The notes under the pieces were generated by a model that saw only the letters and a list, made by a program, of their open reading frames with translations, searched no databases and was not told the origin of the DNA. Of a stretch of 51,091 nucleotides of DNA, positions 19,210-26,434 are shown piece after piece (the first letter of the stretch is position 1; the number at the start of each line of letters is the position of its first letter). Made by a program: the position numbers and the translations under genes. The DNA comes from Adhaeribacter rhizoryzae (lineage in GTDB: Bacteria > Bacteroidota > Bacteroidia > Cytophagales > Hymenobacteraceae), in NCBI RefSeq assembly GCF_008629685.1, contig NZ_VWSF01000002.1:266854-317944 (forward strand), given 5' to 3'.

Positions 19210-20160
19210 ATGAGAATAAAAAAAGCAGTAATTACGGCTGCGGCCCGGGGCGAAAGACTTTACCCGGTAGCCGATACGGTTCAGAAAGCCATGTTGCCCG
19301 TAATTGATATTGATGGTTTGCACAAACCGGCTATCCAGATTATTTGTGAAGAAGCATTTGCCAGTGGCATCGAAGAAATTTGTGTGGTTTGTGCGCCCGG
19401 CGATGGATCTCGTTACCAGGAGGCTTTTACTTCGCTCCGGAATAATTTGCTGAAATCTTATAAAGGCGTACAATGGGCCCGCGAAGAAGCCGAAAAAATT
19501 GACCATTTAACCAGCCGCATCCAGTTTGTAGAACAAACCGAAGCATTGGGCTACGGACAAGCGGTTTACTGCGCCCGTAATTTCGTAAACAACGAACCGT
19601 TTTTGCTGTTGCTCGGCGATTATTTATACGTTTCGAACCTACGCGAAAAACGTTGTGCAGCTCAGTTAATAGAAATAGCCTTGCAGGAAAATTGTTCGGT
19701 ATCGGCGGTAAACCCGACAGTCGAGCACCAGATAAGCCGCTACGGTACTTTAACCGGTAAGCACTTGCCCAACCAACCCGGCGTTTACCAGATAGATAAA
19801 ATAATTGAAAAGCCGTCGCTGAGCGTAGCCGAACTGGAGTTGCAAACTCCTGGCTTGCGCATGGGCTATTATTTATGCTTCTTCGGGATGCACGTTTTAG
19901 TGCCGGCCGTTTTTGATATTCTGGAAAAACACCTGAACACCGGCGAAACCAATATTCAGTTAACGCCGGCTTTGCAGGAACTGGCTGCCACCGATAAATA
20001 CCTGGCTCTGGAAGTAAAAGGCAACCGCTACGATTTAAGCAAAAAGTTAGGCATGCTGCAAGCCCAGATTGCGTTGGGTTTGGCCGGTGAGGCCCACGAC
20101 GAAACCTTAACCACGTTGGTAGAATTGCTGGCCGAAGCTAATCTGCGTCAACTTAACTAA
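19210..20160 (+). CDS. GalU-type sugar-phosphate nucleotidyltransferase
   Basis: A 316-aa protein of the NTP_transferase family. The nucleotide-binding loop is ITAAARGERLYPVAD, followed by KAMLPVID with the catalytic-type Lys; LLLLGDYLY is the metal-binding region and IIEKPS follows. Its closest style is UTP-glucose-1-phosphate uridylyltransferase, which makes UDP-sugars. The loop has Ala where AAGxGxR enzymes usually have the first Gly, so substrate or efficiency may differ. It lies 78 bp upstream of the kinase-like/pyrophosphorylase fusion gene in the same direction, without a terminator between; the two are probably an operon and may act on the same sugar. Confidence 0.82.
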   Translation: MRIKKAVITAAARGERLYPVADTVQKAMLPVIDIDGLHKPAIQIICEEAFASGIEEICVVCAPGDGSRYQEAFTSLRNNLLKSYKGVQWAREEAEKIDHLTSRIQFVEQTEALGYGQAVYCARNFVNNEPFLLLLGDYLYVSNLREKRCAAQLIEIALQENCSVSAVNPTVEHQISRYGTLTGKHLPNQPGVYQIDKIIEKPSLSVAELELQTPGLRMGYYLCFFGMHVLVPAVFDILEKHLNTGETNIQLTPALQELAATDKYLALEVKGNRYDLSKKLGMLQAQIALGLAGEAHDETLTTLVELLAEANLRQLN

Positions 20161-20238
20161 AAATATTTAGTGCCGGCAAAACAGAATAGTTATTAGAATA
20201 GCTGTATCTGGGCTGGCATGTTTAAGAATTAAGGCTTC

Positions 20239-23200
20239 ATGAATATTTTTATAAATACCATTACTTCACCAGACCCGGAAGTTAGAAACCGCTCATTTCA
20301 TCAAATGGCTCAGGCGTTTTCTTCCGCAGAATTATTCCGGGCCCTGCAGGAGTTGGATGACTTTCGGAAAAATACCCCTAACCTTTACGAGAAAGTACGG
20401 GCTATTCTGTTCCTATACTCCGGTTACCGCTTCTTCCTGATGGAAGCAAAAGATGTACCGGCTACCGGCAAAATTCCTTACGCTGGTTTCGAAGATTTAT
20501 TGGGTCGGCGTTTTGAGCAGGCGATTACCACATTTTTGCAGGAAGTTAAACTGCACGGTCCCAATGCTACCTTGTTTAGCGGCCTGGCTGATAGCTATCA
20601 TCATTTGTCGTTCCAGATTCTGGCCGACCAGGTGCGCAAAAGTGTGCGGTCCAGCAAAGGCAACCAGTGGATGTTCCGGGTAGGGCACCAGGATGAGCAC
20701 CCTATCAAGATTCACCCGAAACTATTGCAACGGGCCGAAAACAGTTTGTTTTACCCGGTTCTGGAAGAGCAAACATCCGTGCGCATGGACTTAACGCACA
20801 GCGGCTGGTCTGATATTTTCTTTTTAGGCATGGATTACCCGGAAGGCGCACGGGTTATTAATATTTCGATTGATTTGGGTGTATTTGGTCGCGACAAAGA
20901 AATTAAACCGCCGCTGCAAACCTACATCCGGGTTATCGAAGAACCGGTGCTCCGCCTCACCAGCATCGACCTGAACACGACTAAAGATATTCATGACCTG
21001 GCCGATTTATTTAACTTCGGTAACGATTACCTGAGTTTGGTAAAAGCCGGGGTTATTGCTTCGGGTTTAATCCCACCGTCCTTTGAAGGAACTAACCAAT
21101 CGCTGGAGAAAATATTATCCCGGATGGTGGCGCCTGGCATGGGCATTGAAGTAGTAACCAAGGTAAACGATATTCCGAAGGGTTCGCGTTTTGCGGTTTC
21201 TACCAATTTATTAGGTTCAATTATTAGCTTACTCATGCGGGCAACCGGCCAAACCAAAAACCTGGTGGGTGGTCTGGAAGAAAGCGAGCGTCGGTTGGTA
21301 GCTTCCCGCGCTATATTGGGCGAATGGATTGGCGGTTCGGGTGGTGGTTGGCAGGATTCTGGCGGGGTTTGGCCGGGCATCAAAGCCATTACGGGTACGT
21401 TTGCCCAGGCAGGTGATCCTGAAGCCGGTATTAGCCGCGGTACTTTATTGCCCCGTCACCGGGTTTTACAAGGCGAAGCTATTCACCCGGACATCTCCGA
21501 TAAAATTACCAACTCGCTGGTATTGATGCACGGAGGCATGGCCTCTAACGTAGGCCCAATCCTGGAAATGGTAACCGAAAAGTACCTGCTGCGCGGCGAT
21601 AGAGAATGGGAAGCACGTCAGCAAACGAACCAAATATTCGATAATATTCTGGGGGCCTTAAAAGAAGGCGATATTCAGAAGTTAGGTGCTAACACGGCCC
21701 GCAACTGGGAATACCCCATTAAAACCATAATTCCGTGGGCTTCTACTTACTTTACCGAACAAATTATTGCCAAAGCTAAAAAAGAATTTGGCGCTGATTA
21801 TTATGGCTTCCTGATGCTGGGTGGTATGTCGGGCGGCGGTATGGGTATGTTTGTAAACCCCGAAAAGTACGAGCATTACAAAATGCGGGTGCTGGATTTA
21901 TTGCGTACTACCAAAGCGGAGCTGTCGGATGCTTTGCCTTTTGCCATGGAACCAGTGGTGTACAACTGGCGCATTAACCAACGCGGCACCTGGTCGTCGT
22001 TGCACGAAGGCGCCGAAGCGCTAATGCCGGAGCAATATTACGGTATCCATGTGTCGGAACTGGTCCGCAAAGATCCTAATGCCATTTCTTACATTCGCCG
22101 GGCCGAAATTGACCATTTTACGACTTTAGCGGAGCAGCACCACTTGGCGTATCCGCTGCTACGAACCATTGTCAGCAACTTATTTAAAGTATCTGACCCA
22201 TCCTCGCAAAGCAACCGCAGCGACGAAAACGACAAATCGGACCGCATTAAAAAAGAAAACGGCTTTGATTTTATTCAGCACGAAGAAATACGCGAAGAGC
22301 TGCAGAAAGGCCGTATTGGGTTGTCGCGTAACCGTTTGCACGCCGAAACTACCATTGAAGATGTGCGCTCAACCGATGTGGTGCAACTGGAAGAATTAAC
22401 TGCCGAATCAAATATTGGCGAAGAAGCCATCAAAGCCGGCAAAGTTGGGGTATTAAGTTTGGCCGCCGGGGTAGGTAGCCGCTGGACCAAAGGGGCCGGG
22501 GTAATTAAAGCCCTAAATCCGTTTGTAGAAATAGATGGCGTGCATCGCAGCTTCCTGGAAATCCACTTGGCTAAGACCCGCACGGTAGGCGAAAAATATC
22601 AGGCCGTTATTCCGCACCTGGTAGCTACCAGTTACCTCACGCACAAGCCTATTGAAAGGAAGCTAAACCAAACGGATAATTTTGGGTACAATGGACCAGT
22701 TTACTTGTCGCCGGGCCGTTCTATTGGGCAACGCTTTGTTCCGATGGAGCGTGATTTACGCTTTATGTGGGAAGAAATGCCGCAAGAAACCCTCGACGAA
22801 AACAAGCAAAAAGTACGGGAATCGGTACGGCAGTCGATGATTAATTGGGCCAGAGGTAAAGGCGAAGGTACCGATTACGTCGATAATATTGCCTCGCAAC
22901 GGTTCTCACCGTTAGGCCACTGGTACGAAGTATCGAACCTCCTGCGCAACGGTACTTTAGCTAAACTCCTTGATGAGAATCCGCAGGTAGAAACCATTAT
23001 GCTGCATAATATTGATACCTTAGGCGCCGACATAAACCCGGCTGCTTTGGGGCATCACCTGGCCTCGGGCAATGTACTGACTTTTGAAGTGGTACCGCGT
23101 CGCATTGAGGACCGGGGTGGCGGGTTAGCCCGCGTAAACGGCCACGTACGCTTACTTGAAGGGTTGGCGCAGCCTCGCGAAGAAGACGAACTGAACCTAA

Positions 23201-23568
23201 GCTATTATAACACCATGACCACCTGGATTCAGGTAGATCCGCTGTTAGCATTATTCGGGCTTACCCGCCAGGATTTAAAAGGCGATGCGGCATTGCTGGC
23301 GAAGGCTGTTCGGAAAGTAGCACACCGGATGCCGACTTACGTTACCATTAAAGATGTTAAATACCGCTGGGGACACGGCCAGGAAGATATTTACCCGGTA
23401 GCCCAAATCGAAAAACTCTGGAGTGATATGTCGGGCTTAACCGATATTCAGTGCGGGTATATTGCGGTGCCACGTTTGCGCGGCCAGCAAATGAAAGATC
23501 CAGCGCAGTTAGATGCTTGGGTAACCGATGGCAGTAAAGATTACATTGCCTCGCTTTGCACCTTTTAA
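20239..23568 (+). CDS. Fusion of GHMP (fucokinase-like) domain and UDPGP pyrophosphorylase domain
   Basis: A 1109-aa protein with three parts. Residues 1-170 are helical and unrecognised. About 175-650 is GHMP-kinase-like: SVRMDLTHSGWSDIFF (180-195) and GGSGGGWQDSGGVWPGIK (365-382) match the fucokinase half of Fkp, but the expected P-loop (KGSGLGTSS in relatives) reads KGSRFAVST at 314-322, losing its glycines. A polar linker (about 650-680) precedes a C-terminal UDPGP domain: SLAAGVGSRWTKG (740-752), SPLGHWYEV (about 890), NIDTLGADI (about 924), then RGGGLARVNGHVRLLE. Known Fkp/FKGP proteins have the pyrophosphorylase first and the kinase second, so the order here is reversed. A sugar-activation role (sugar-1-P plus NTP to NDP-sugar) is likely for the C-terminal half; kinase activity is doubtful. 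Confidence 0.75.
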   Translation: MNIFINTITSPDPEVRNRSFHQMAQAFSSAELFRALQELDDFRKNTPNLYEKVRAILFLYSGYRFFLMEAKDVPATGKIPYAGFEDLLGRRFEQAITTFLQEVKLHGPNATLFSGLADSYHHLSFQILADQVRKSVRSSKGNQWMFRVGHQDEHPIKIHPKLLQRAENSLFYPVLEEQTSVRMDLTHSGWSDIFFLGMDYPEGARVINISIDLGVFGRDKEIKPPLQTYIRVIEEPVLRLTSIDLNTTKDIHDLADLFNFGNDYLSLVKAGVIASGLIPPSFEGTNQSLEKILSRMVAPGMGIEVVTKVNDIPKGSRFAVSTNLLGSIISLLMRATGQTKNLVGGLEESERRLVASRAILGEWIGGSGGGWQDSGGVWPGIKAITGTFAQAGDPEAGISRGTLLPRHRVLQGEAIHPDISDKITNSLVLMHGGMASNVGPILEMVTEKYLLRGDREWEARQQTNQIFDNILGALKEGDIQKLGANTARNWEYPIKTIIPWASTYFTEQIIAKAKKEFGADYYGFLMLGGMSGGGMGMFVNPEKYEHYKMRVLDLLRTTKAELSDALPFAMEPVVYNWRINQRGTWSSLHEGAEALMPEQYYGIHVSELVRKDPNAISYIRRAEIDHFTTLAEQHHLAYPLLRTIVSNLFKVSDPSSQSNRSDENDKSDRIKKENGFDFIQHEEIREELQKGRIGLSRNRLHAETTIEDVRSTDVVQLEELTAESNIGEEAIKAGKVGVLSLAAGVGSRWTKGAGVIKALNPFVEIDGVHRSFLEIHLAKTRTVGEKYQAVIPHLVATSYLTHKPIERKLNQTDNFGYNGPVYLSPGRSIGQRFVPMERDLRFMWEEMPQETLDENKQKVRESVRQSMINWARGKGEGTDYVDNIASQRFSPLGHWYEVSNLLRNGTLAKLLDENPQVETIMLHNIDTLGADINPAALGHHLASGNVLTFEVVPRRIEDRGGGLARVNGHVRLLEGLAQPREEDELNLSYYNTMTTWIQVDPLLALFGLTRQDLKGDAALLAKAVRKVAHRMPTYVTIKDVKYRWGHGQEDIYPVAQIEKLWSDMSGLTDIQCGYIAVPRLRGQQMKDPAQLDAWVTDGSKDYIASLCTF

Positions 23569-24649: not shown

Positions 24650-25063
24650 TTAGTGATGCGCTTTCGCTTCTTCTAGAGCGGGTAAGCCATTTTTCACCCG
24701 GTAGTCGTTAATAGCAGCTTTAATCGCATCTTCGGCTAATACCGAGCAGTGAATTTTTACCGGTGGTAAGGCCAGTTCTTCCACAATTTCCATGTTATCG
24801 ATGGATAAAGCAGCATTAATAGATTTACCTTTTAACCATTCGGTGGCTAAAGAAGATGACGCAATGGCAGAACCACAACCAAAGGTTTTGAATTTAGCGT
24901 CGGTAATAACCTGGTTTTCGTCTACTTCAATTTGCAAACGCATTACGTCGCCACACTCAGGGGCGCCAACTAAGCCAGTACCAACATTGGCTTTAGATTT
25001 ATCCAGCGTACCTACGTTACGTGGGTTGCTGTAATGATCAATTACTTTATCTGAATAAGCCAT
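24650..25063 (-). CDS. iscU: Iron-sulfur cluster scaffold IscU
   Basis: A 137-aa scaffold with the three cluster cysteines in APECGDVM, KTFGCGSAIASSS and VKIHCSVLAEDAIKAA, and the conserved start YSDKVIDHYSNPRNVGTLD. It assembles [2Fe-2S] clusters from IscS-derived sulfur. The usual LPPVK chaperone-binding motif is present as ALPPVKIHC. It follows iscS with a 156-bp AT-rich, repeat-containing gap. Confidence 0.97.
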   Translation of the reverse strand: MAYSDKVIDHYSNPRNVGTLDKSKANVGTGLVGAPECGDVMRLQIEVDENQVITDAKFKTFGCGSAIASSSLATEWLKGKSINAALSIDNMEIVEELALPPVKIHCSVLAEDAIKAAINDYRVKNGLPALEEAKAHH

Positions 25064-25072
25064 TTCTTTATC

Positions 25073-25200
25073 AATTAAAAATTATGAATTAAAAATTATG
25101 AATTACTTAGAAATACGAATTATAAATTAGAATGATTTAGGTTGCTGGACCTGAACATTATAGTGTTAAGTGCCAGAACCATTTCTAATTTATAATTCAT
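25073..25200. repeat. AT-rich direct and inverted repeats between iscS and iscU
   Basis: Two tandem 14-bp copies of AATTAAAAATTATG (25073-25100), and an inverted pair built on GAATTATAAATTAGAATG (25117-25134) and its near complement at 25180-25198. The ATTCATAATT style of simple repeat is widespread in AT-rich genomes. It may fold in the operon mRNA. Confidence 0.7.
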
Positions 25201-25219
25201 AATTTCTAATTTAATATTA

Positions 25220-26434
25220 TTAGTGCTCAGCCCACTCAATAGAGTTCAGGTCGATGCCTTCTTTAAACATTTCCCACAACGGCGACATTTCACGCAGCTT
25301 ATTAACCGCTTCGGTTACGTGGCTGATAGCGTAATCTATCTGCTCATCGGTGGTAAAGCGGCTTAAGCCAAAGCGCAACGAAGAGTGTGCCAGGTCATCG
25401 CTTAAGCCTAAAGCTTTTAACACGTAAGAAGGTTCCAAAGAGGCTGAAGTACAAGCCGAACCAGAAGATACAGCTAAATCTTTCACGCCCATCATCAGGC
25501 CTTCGCCTTCTACGTATTTAAAAGAAATATTGGTAACGTGCGGCAGGCGGTGTTCGCGCGAACCGTTTACGTAAGATTCTTCAATTTTTAATAACTCTTT
25601 TTCCAGGCGGTCGCGCAGACGGGAAGTATGCTCAATATCGCGTTGCATTTCCAGGCGGGCCAGTTCGCAGGCTTTGCCTAAACCAACAATGCCAGGCACG
25701 TTAAGGGTACCAGAACGCATACCGCGCTCGTGGCCGCCACCGTCCATCTGAGCTGTAACTTTAACGCGTGGGTTTTTTCGGCGCACATACAGGGCACCTA
25801 TACCTTTCGGGCCGTACATTTTATGGCCAGTAAAGGCCATCAGGTCAATGCCGTCAGCTTCTACGTCAACCGGTATTTTACCTACGGCCTGGGTACCATC
25901 GGTCATAAACAGAATACCGCGTTTTTTGGCCATAGCCGAAATTTCGCGGATAGGTTGCAGAACGCCCACTTCGTTATTGCCGTACATGATGGCAATTAAA
26001 ATGGTTTTATCGGTTATAGCGGCTTCCAGTTCTTGCAAGTTAATTAAACCTTCGGCATCAACGGGCAGGTAAGTTACCTTGCCACCCAGTTTCTCAATGT
26101 GCTTACAGGTATCCAGAACTGCTTTGTGTTCGGTAGTAGCCGTAATAATATGATTTCCTTTGGAAGCATACATTTCGAACACCCCTTTAATAGCCAGGTT
26201 GTCAGATTCGGTAGCGCCCGAGGTGAAAATAATTTCTTTTGGATTACAGTTAATCAGGGCCGCAATTTGTTCGCGGGCATAATCAACGGCCTCTTCGGCA
26301 GCCCACCCAAAAGGGTGATTACGAGAAGCCGCATTGCCGAAGTGTTCGGTCATGTACGGAATCATCGCTTCCAATACCCGCGGGTCCATGGGCGTGGTGG
26401 CGTTGTTATCGAGGTATATAGGTAACTTTAACAT
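25220..26434 (-). CDS. iscS: Cysteine desulfurase IscS
   Basis: 404 aa, the same length as E. coli IscS. PLP-binding Lys205 lies in [11 protein letters not shown], the active-site Cys328 in [10 protein letters not shown], and TTEHKAVLD carries the His stacked on PLP. It removes sulfur from cysteine and passes it as persulfide to IscU and to tRNA-thiolating enzymes. First gene of the iscS-iscU-iscA group. A TATTTTTG box on the minus strand (26511-26518) is a possible promoter about 80 bp upstream. No iscR, hscAB or fdx genes follow in this window. Confidence 0.97.

Follow-up and report, generated by a model that had tools for sequence, protein, structure and literature searches.

Among the described systems that come close to the one presented here are Fkp (PRK13412; PDB 9iit, 9iip, 5yys) and the zebrafish protein DrGKUP, in both of which a GHMP kinase is fused to a nucleotidyltransferase. 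The present system is a pair of genes in a stretch of 51,091 nucleotides from Adhaeribacter rhizoryzae (contig NZ_VWSF01000002.1, positions 266,854 to 317,944; the whole stretch is called the window), coding for a GalU-like protein and for a fused protein of 1109 amino acids (aa). With moderate confidence, the latter is proposed to be a bifunctional sugar-1-kinase / UDP-sugar pyrophosphorylase, a reading in which predicted fold, motifs, conservation, pairing, and correlated divergence are the evidence and the activities, donor, sugar, and subunit contact are inferred. The pair is assigned to the bifunctional sugar kinase / pyrophosphorylase type, but not to the Fkp group.

Fkp holds a fucose-1-phosphate guanylyltransferase at its N terminus and the kinase at its C terminus. 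According to the accessible part of its structural description, Arg592, Glu751, and Asp762 act in catalysis, Asp762 being the general base, Ser719 binds the metal, and the backbone of Gly717 binds the phosphate of the product (PMC11982464). The sugar, which is accepted in an L-fucose, L-galactose, or D-arabinose-like configuration, is contacted by Trp599, Asp601, and Gln761, and Asp644 makes a modelled contact to the base (PMC11982464). For DrGKUP a role in UDP-sugar salvage has been proposed, but its nucleotidyltransferase is N-terminal, of a short bacterial type, and, by the available part of that study, could not be demonstrated to be active (PMC3938481). The window protein has the kinase first and a UDPGP domain second. 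Among the papers listed by open-access searches, which took in neither preprints nor closed literature, no system with this layout was found, as a preliminary description of this DNA had held; Fkp and DrGKUP were among those listed. The kinase of DrGKUP belongs to another GHMP group and has an ordinary phosphate loop.

Layout of the locus and architecture of the fused protein

Both open reading frames (ORFs) start with ATG and lie on the plus strand, with 78 bp between them. Conservation was followed over 88 sequences, namely the window's own, seven others from 395 genomes of Bacteroidota, and, from a contig collection with at least 585 relatives, the best 80, so that the sample leans to close relatives; two loci (L022 and L056) are incomplete, and many source genomes are metagenome-assembled genomes (MAGs), some with doubtful names. 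Fkp numbering is taken from an alignment with 5yys, and the residue matches rest on sequence alignment. The features of the pair are the following:

19210..20160, plus strand: GalU-like nucleotidyltransferase, the conserved partner, 316 aa (family profiles, model, adjacency)
20239..23568, plus strand: fused GHMP kinase-like / UDPGP protein, 1109 aa (Pfam, NCBIfam, model, Foldseek, hhalign)
20239..20748, plus strand: helical N-terminal region, residues 1-170 (model, alignment)
20758..22008, plus strand: GHMP kinase half, about residues 174-590 (hhalign to Fkp, Foldseek match to 9iip)
20779..20817, plus strand: motif 1, VRMDLTHSGWSDI, with R182, W190, and D192 at the places of Fkp R592, W599, and D601 (alignment, 88/88)
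21175..21204, plus strand: altered phosphate loop PKGSRFAVST (313-322), with R317 in 88/88 and the metal ligand Fkp S719 kept as S321
21340..21357, plus strand: GGGWQD (368-373), with Q372 at Fkp Q761 and D373 at D762, and E362 (Fkp E751) just upstream (88/88)
21820..21846, plus strand: GHMP glycine motif 3, GGMSGGGMG (528-536), against GAGGGG in Fkp (hhalign)
22264..23565, plus strand: UDPGP half, about residues 676-1109 (Pfam, Foldseek, hhalign)
22468..22509, plus strand: UDPGP nucleotide loop, GVGSRWTKGAGVIK (744-757), with R748 and K757 invariant (88/88)
23008..23028, plus strand: NIDTLGA (924-930), against NSDNLGA in UGP (hhalign), with N924 and D926 in 88/88
23467..23496, plus strand: VPRLRGQQMK (1077-1086), K1086 aligning with the lysine of VPRARFAPVK in UGP (87/88, one gap)

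The order of the two halves follows from profile matches. The kinase part of the NCBIfam model for Fkp (PRK13412, positions 613-935 of 974) matches residues 178-540 with an E value of 9.5e-21; the score of 73.2 bits lies far below the cut-off of 721, and the model is only partly covered, so the protein does not pass as a whole Fkp. Pfam UDPGP (PF01704) matches residues 886-1003 (E 7.7e-12), passing its cut-off of 22 with 45.1 bits, and matches nothing else in the genome. At E values up to 1, no further Pfam family matches the protein, and searches of Pfam and NCBIfam gave no family for residues 1-170, a region in which G141, N142, W144, F146, and R147 are invariant among 64 aligned sequences. 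By sequence, the relatives of known structure are FKP and UDP-glucose pyrophosphorylases of eukaryotes.

An AlphaFold2 model built with the 64 aligned sequences has a predicted local distance difference test score (pLDDT) of 88.8 and a predicted template modelling score (pTM) of 0.88. When it is compared with the PDB by Foldseek, full-length FKP comes first, followed by the fucokinase part of FKP (9iip, template modelling score (TM) 0.80 by target) and then by UAP/UGP enzymes; the N-terminal half of the predicted model takes the GHMP superfamily fold. Three Fkp proteins align colinearly with residues 174-556 in hhalign (probability 99%). For the UDPGP half, the colinear alignment with two UGP-type proteins from bacteria (97%) reaches as far as the lysine of VPRLRGQQMK. 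Between the UDPGP half and Fkp, the same program gives a probability of 1.1% and an E value of 0.047, that is, no profile-level homology. The protein is therefore not a permuted Fkp, an origin that is ruled out, and its second half belongs to a different family.

The preliminary description had placed a fucokinase-like GHMP domain before a UDPGP domain, and this order is borne out by both profiles, the model, and Foldseek. Its phrase of an opposite order to Fkp is right as to the order, but not as to the C-terminal half, which comes from another family. The motifs that it quoted are all present, namely SGWSD (188-192), KGSRFAVST (314-322), GGGWQD (368-373), AAGVGSR (742-748), NIDTLGA (924-930), and GGGLARVNGHVRLLE.

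The UDPGP half is like the eukaryotic-type UDP-glucose/UDP-GlcNAc pyrophosphorylases (PF01704; 2icx, 8c0b, 8yp3), with which it is colinear to the VPR...K motif. It differs from them in being fused behind a kinase, in its shorter C terminus after the lysine motif, and in reading GHWYE and NTMTTW instead of GHG(D/E) and NTNNxW. The residues expected of the family are kept (K757, N924, and D926 in 88/88; K1086 in 87/88), and together with the invariant R748 they agree with the earlier view that the motifs of this half are intact. In hhalign, the assignment of K757 to the loop lysine of UGP leaves an uncertainty of two residues, and the confidence of the model falls below 50 at residues 747-753.

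The GHMP half and its phosphate loop

The GHMP half has its nearest counterpart in the fucokinase half of Bacteroides Fkp, is colinear with it in its motifs, and keeps the catalytic and most of the sugar-contact residues described in the available text on that enzyme. R182, W190, D192, D244, S321, E362, Q372, and D373 stand at the places of Fkp R592, W599, D601, D644, S719, E751, Q761, and D762 and are identical in 88/88, so that the set expected of an Fkp-type kinase (R592, W599, D601, E751, Q761, D762) is complete. In the modelled adenine pocket, Fkp L722 is kept as L324, and M645 and I669 are replaced conservatively by L245 and L267 (each 88/88). A decayed GHMP pseudo-domain is not favoured, given that the catalytic set is invariant, and since the other catalytic residues are kept, the GHMP half probably still activates a sugar.

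The phosphate loop, by contrast, differs from that of Fkp, reading GSR(L/F)AVST throughout the 88 sequences where Fkp has GSGLGTSS, and is not the glycine-rich loop of the GHMP superfamily. Arg317 is present in the window's own protein and in all 87 homologues, and K314 in 87/88, with Arg in one. With Arg317 and the catalytic residues of the GHMP half identical in 88/88, the altered loop is not a matter of chance, and the change already pointed out in the preliminary description proves to be fixed. For comparison, 30 further GHMP loci of the phylum were drawn from 82 PF00288 matches in 31 genomes; the loop was readable in 29 of them (L124 being the exception), and all 29 have glycine at the place of R317. 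This control set is biased toward glycine, since a family model with a glycine loop served to find it, and loops were picked by eye where there were several candidates. At the level of sequence, a single change stands out, that from glycine to arginine, the rest of the GHMP site being largely complete.

The GalU-like partner and the spread of the gene pair

The partner matches Pfam NTP_transferase (E 2.1e-15) and scores 155.7 bits with the GalU model TIGR01099, not reaching the cut-off of 326.8, which the other GalU of the genome, encoded elsewhere, passes with 365.6 bits. Its model (pLDDT 93.8) has the GalU fold, with the Bacillus subtilis UGPase YngB as the best PDB match (TM 0.85 by target), and confidence is lowest at the nucleotide loop (mean 55 for residues 11-20, below 50 for 17-20):

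19237..19302, plus strand: nucleotide loop of the partner, AAARGERLYPVADTVQKAMLPV (residues 10-31), with Lys26 in the 52 partners of type A; the loop is deleted in the 26 of type B

Like GalU and YngB, the partner has the base/sugar-side motifs QTEALGYG, GDY, and EKP, but its loop is altered in type A and deleted in type B. Type A loops resemble AA(A/G)RGxRLYP...QKAMLP and hold the lysine of the PKxMLP loop in 52 loci, a count that is circular, as the type is defined by Lys26. In the 26 type B loci, eight residues including this lysine are deleted; the count leaves out L042, which is truncated, and L048, which has Arg for Lys. Asp275 is kept in 47/52 type A partners, and type B has Asn in 15/26, Asp in 10, and Pro in 1. 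Q109, G114, D137, E200, K201, P202, and R273 are kept in both. In a tree of 78 loci (52 A and 26 B, with L048 placed in A and L056 excluded), the 26 type B loci form one side of a single branch with support 100. The AAARGER loop that had been singled out in the preliminary description is thus present in the window, but is not fixed, varying among loci and being deleted in one clade. The type B partner looks catalytically dead from its sequence, so that the altered loop of the partner carries more weight than that description gave it. With base/sugar-side residues kept, the catalytic loop gone, and the gene pair persisting, binding or regulation is the more likely role of the type B subunit, whereas the type A partner may still be an enzyme. 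As a catalyst, the partner is less certain than the fused protein.

The earlier observation of a second nucleotidyltransferase beside the fused gene extends to nearly all of the sampled loci. A GalU-like gene lies directly upstream, on the same strand, in 85/88 loci including the window's own (tblastn); in five of these it is cut short where the contig ends. Usable upstream sequence is lacking for two of the misses, with 36 bases in L021 and 0 in L022; the third, L077, has 8 kb, in which no GalU-like partner was found, also with the 26 type B sequences as queries. In a clustering of neighbours, the partner cluster has members in 72 loci. For 71 of these, the member is the next gene upstream; in the remaining one (L051) it is another enzyme, and the true partner of that locus was found by tblastn. 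Over 78 loci, a correlation of r = 0.94 is seen between the distance matrices of the fused protein and the partner; it is reached in 0/999 permutations, and shared species history contributes to it. No other neighbour cluster exceeded 8 loci, and 34 adjacent same-strand genes, hand-picked and mostly within 150 bp, matched 70 Pfam families, each of the 25 listed ones in one member only. Given these results, the pair looks self-standing, and the two genes look like an old unit.

The 87 homologues, which have 51-84% identity and come from many phyla, rule out a chance ORF or a recent oddity. The 78 loci of the tree cover ten phyla as labelled in the records, besides one doubtful Actinomycetota MAG; this MAG (L020), labelled Williamsia, is nested inside Bacteroidota and is probably a misnamed or misbinned contig. 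Among the 395 Bacteroidota genomes, 11 matched (the window's own counted), eight with a full-length protein and three with one half only. The family is carried by 4/8 genomes of the window's genus, its own counted and one carrying a fragment. A mobile cassette was considered, as the genus is patchy. In one of the six relatives searched, G395, a cysteine desulfurase-like gene borders the pair downstream, as in the window, but in the other five the two flanking genes are far apart, so that no empty site could be defined. Plasmids gave one full-length and one partial match, phages one partial match, and PHROGs a weak match to the partner only. Long ORF extensions in L048 and L052 were rejected as partner fusions, since the partner of L052 lies in another frame and that of L048 is a separate overlapping hit.

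Some further observations concern neighbouring or related loci. The Hymenobacter volaticus plasmid NZ_CP095065.1 carries the pair (L126:6001-9327); its large gene has no listed coding sequence in an incomplete gene table, is matched in four pieces at 76.5% identity, and may be broken. On the minus strand at 24650-26434, the window encodes a NifU-type iron-sulfur scaffold protein (Pfam) and a neighbouring ORF that we take to be a cysteine desulfurase. A second GHMP kinase of 331 aa is encoded in the window's own genome directly upstream of a canonical GalU (L095:410-2379, contig C26); it has the loop PRQVGLAGSSA and weak matches to mevalonate kinase and HddA models. As this kinase occurs with or without the window pair (in 8/14 genomes searched, including all 6 others of the same genus), its locus is a separate unit and not part of the system described here. 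Given the likeness of its loop, we presume that it may form a glucuronokinase-type UDP-sugar salvage pair with the GalU.

Proposed function and competing readings

In the proposed mechanism, the GHMP half would phosphorylate a free sugar at its anomeric hydroxyl, using a nucleotide (probably ATP) as the donor, with D373 as the base and with R182 and a metal held by S321 stabilising the transfer. Where glycine is usual, R317 would bring a positive charge into the phosphate loop, and it probably touches the donor phosphates. The UDPGP half would then convert the sugar-1-phosphate and UTP into UDP-sugar and pyrophosphate (PPi), and the GalU-like partner would be a co-inherited second subunit or enzyme, in presumed contact with the fused protein. 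As one clade has its base/sugar-side motifs without the catalytic loop, we think that the partner assists or regulates, by binding UDP-sugar, and is not an essential second activity. By comparison with the accessible account of Fkp, the set W190/D192/Q372/D373 suggests a sugar with the L-fucose, L-galactose, or D-arabinose configuration at C2-C4.

Several points weigh against this proposal. The arginine at the place of Fkp G715 (88/88), where control loops have glycine, could hinder ATP binding. Fkp G717 is replaced by A319 (88/88), although alanine in this position is nothing unusual, as the other GHMP protein of the genome reads VGLAGSSA. Fkp T602 has become I193 (88/88), a warning for the sugar assignment, and at the modelled base site Fkp P666 is replaced by Y264 in 82/88 and by His in 6. 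Pfam GHMP_kinases_N misses the 1109-aa protein at E values up to 1; the family protein is absent from its 4 matches in the window's own genome and from its 6 in G014, a genome bearing a homologue. The confidence of the model drops at the active-site loops (block means 69 for residues 191-200, 74 for 311-320, 67 for 361-370, and 63 for 741-750). Finally, the neighbouring genes give no clue to the substrate, with no family shared among the 25 listed of 70.

The altered loop could also mean that the GHMP half no longer transfers phosphate and, instead, binds a sugar or sugar phosphate and regulates the UDPGP half, which was one of the two possibilities raised in the preliminary description. The glycine replaced is conserved in the controls and its replacement fixed in 88/88, one clade has a partner that looks non-catalytic too, and some GHMP proteins, such as yeast Gal3, are indeed sensors. 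Nevertheless, this reading is considered unlikely: sensors usually lose some of the GHMP catalytic residues, while here D373, R182, S321, E362, and the base-pocket residue D244 are identical in 88/88 across some ten phyla. Invariant catalytic and most sugar-contact residues, together with a largely kept adenine pocket, argue against a purely sensing domain, as far as the residue roles in the accessible Fkp text extend. With all eight Fkp-equivalent residues in 88/88, the sensor is not supported as the first choice, and of the earlier interpretation the layout, the loop, the UDPGP motifs, and the pairing stand, while its alternative of an unusual phosphate donor may still apply.

A different use of the arginine is known from TM0415, a PPi-dependent kinase of the ribokinase family in which, by the accessible part of its description, the phosphate loop carries Arg232 in place of a small residue, and this arginine both obstructs ATP and binds PPi (PMC5931981). 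By this precedent, sugar and PPi would give sugar-1-phosphate and phosphate (Pi), and sugar-1-phosphate and UTP would give UDP-sugar and PPi on the same polypeptide, for a net reaction of sugar and UTP to UDP-sugar and Pi. R317 (88/88) and K314 (87/88) provide basic residues in the donor loop, and the fused UDPGP domain would produce the PPi. This route is nonetheless rather improbable. The likeness to TM0415 lies in the arginine of the donor loop, but other residues also fill the ATP pocket there (PMC5931981). In the window family, the nucleotide pocket is largely kept (D244 and L324, with conservative L245 and L267; 88/88), giving no clear sign of occlusion apart from Y264 for P666, and a lysine at the place of K314 is also found in one of three Fkp proteins. 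TM0415 differs from GHMP kinases in fold and family, the two folds being unrelated, and we know of no PPi-dependent GHMP kinase. An extended form, in which a PPi-using GHMP kinase spends the PPi of the fused UDPGP domain and is joined by a GalU-derived regulatory subunit, a pseudo-enzyme in one clade, is likewise improbable; to our knowledge, such a sugar kinase would be the first of the superfamily. The occurrence of two nucleotidyltransferases of different families together in 85/88 loci would fit a two-step exchange, in which the UDPGP half and the partner act on two sugar-1-phosphates, one making and the other consuming UDP-sugar, and the kinase feeds one of them. Type A partners keep Lys26, by definition, and mostly Asp275 (47/52), but the pair persists in the 26-locus clade whose partner has lost the lysine loop and has Asn at 275 in 15/26, which makes the exchange very doubtful.

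The bifunctional sugar-1-kinase / UDP-sugar pyrophosphorylase remains the preferred reading. The unit spans some ten phyla as labelled, and neither Pfam nor NCBIfam recognises the window's 1109-aa protein in its entirety. Its presence implies that a free sugar would be activated to a UDP-sugar by a route absent from the open-access papers searched, and the fixed change from glycine to arginine in a largely complete GHMP site would offer a test case for the choice of phosphate donor in this superfamily.

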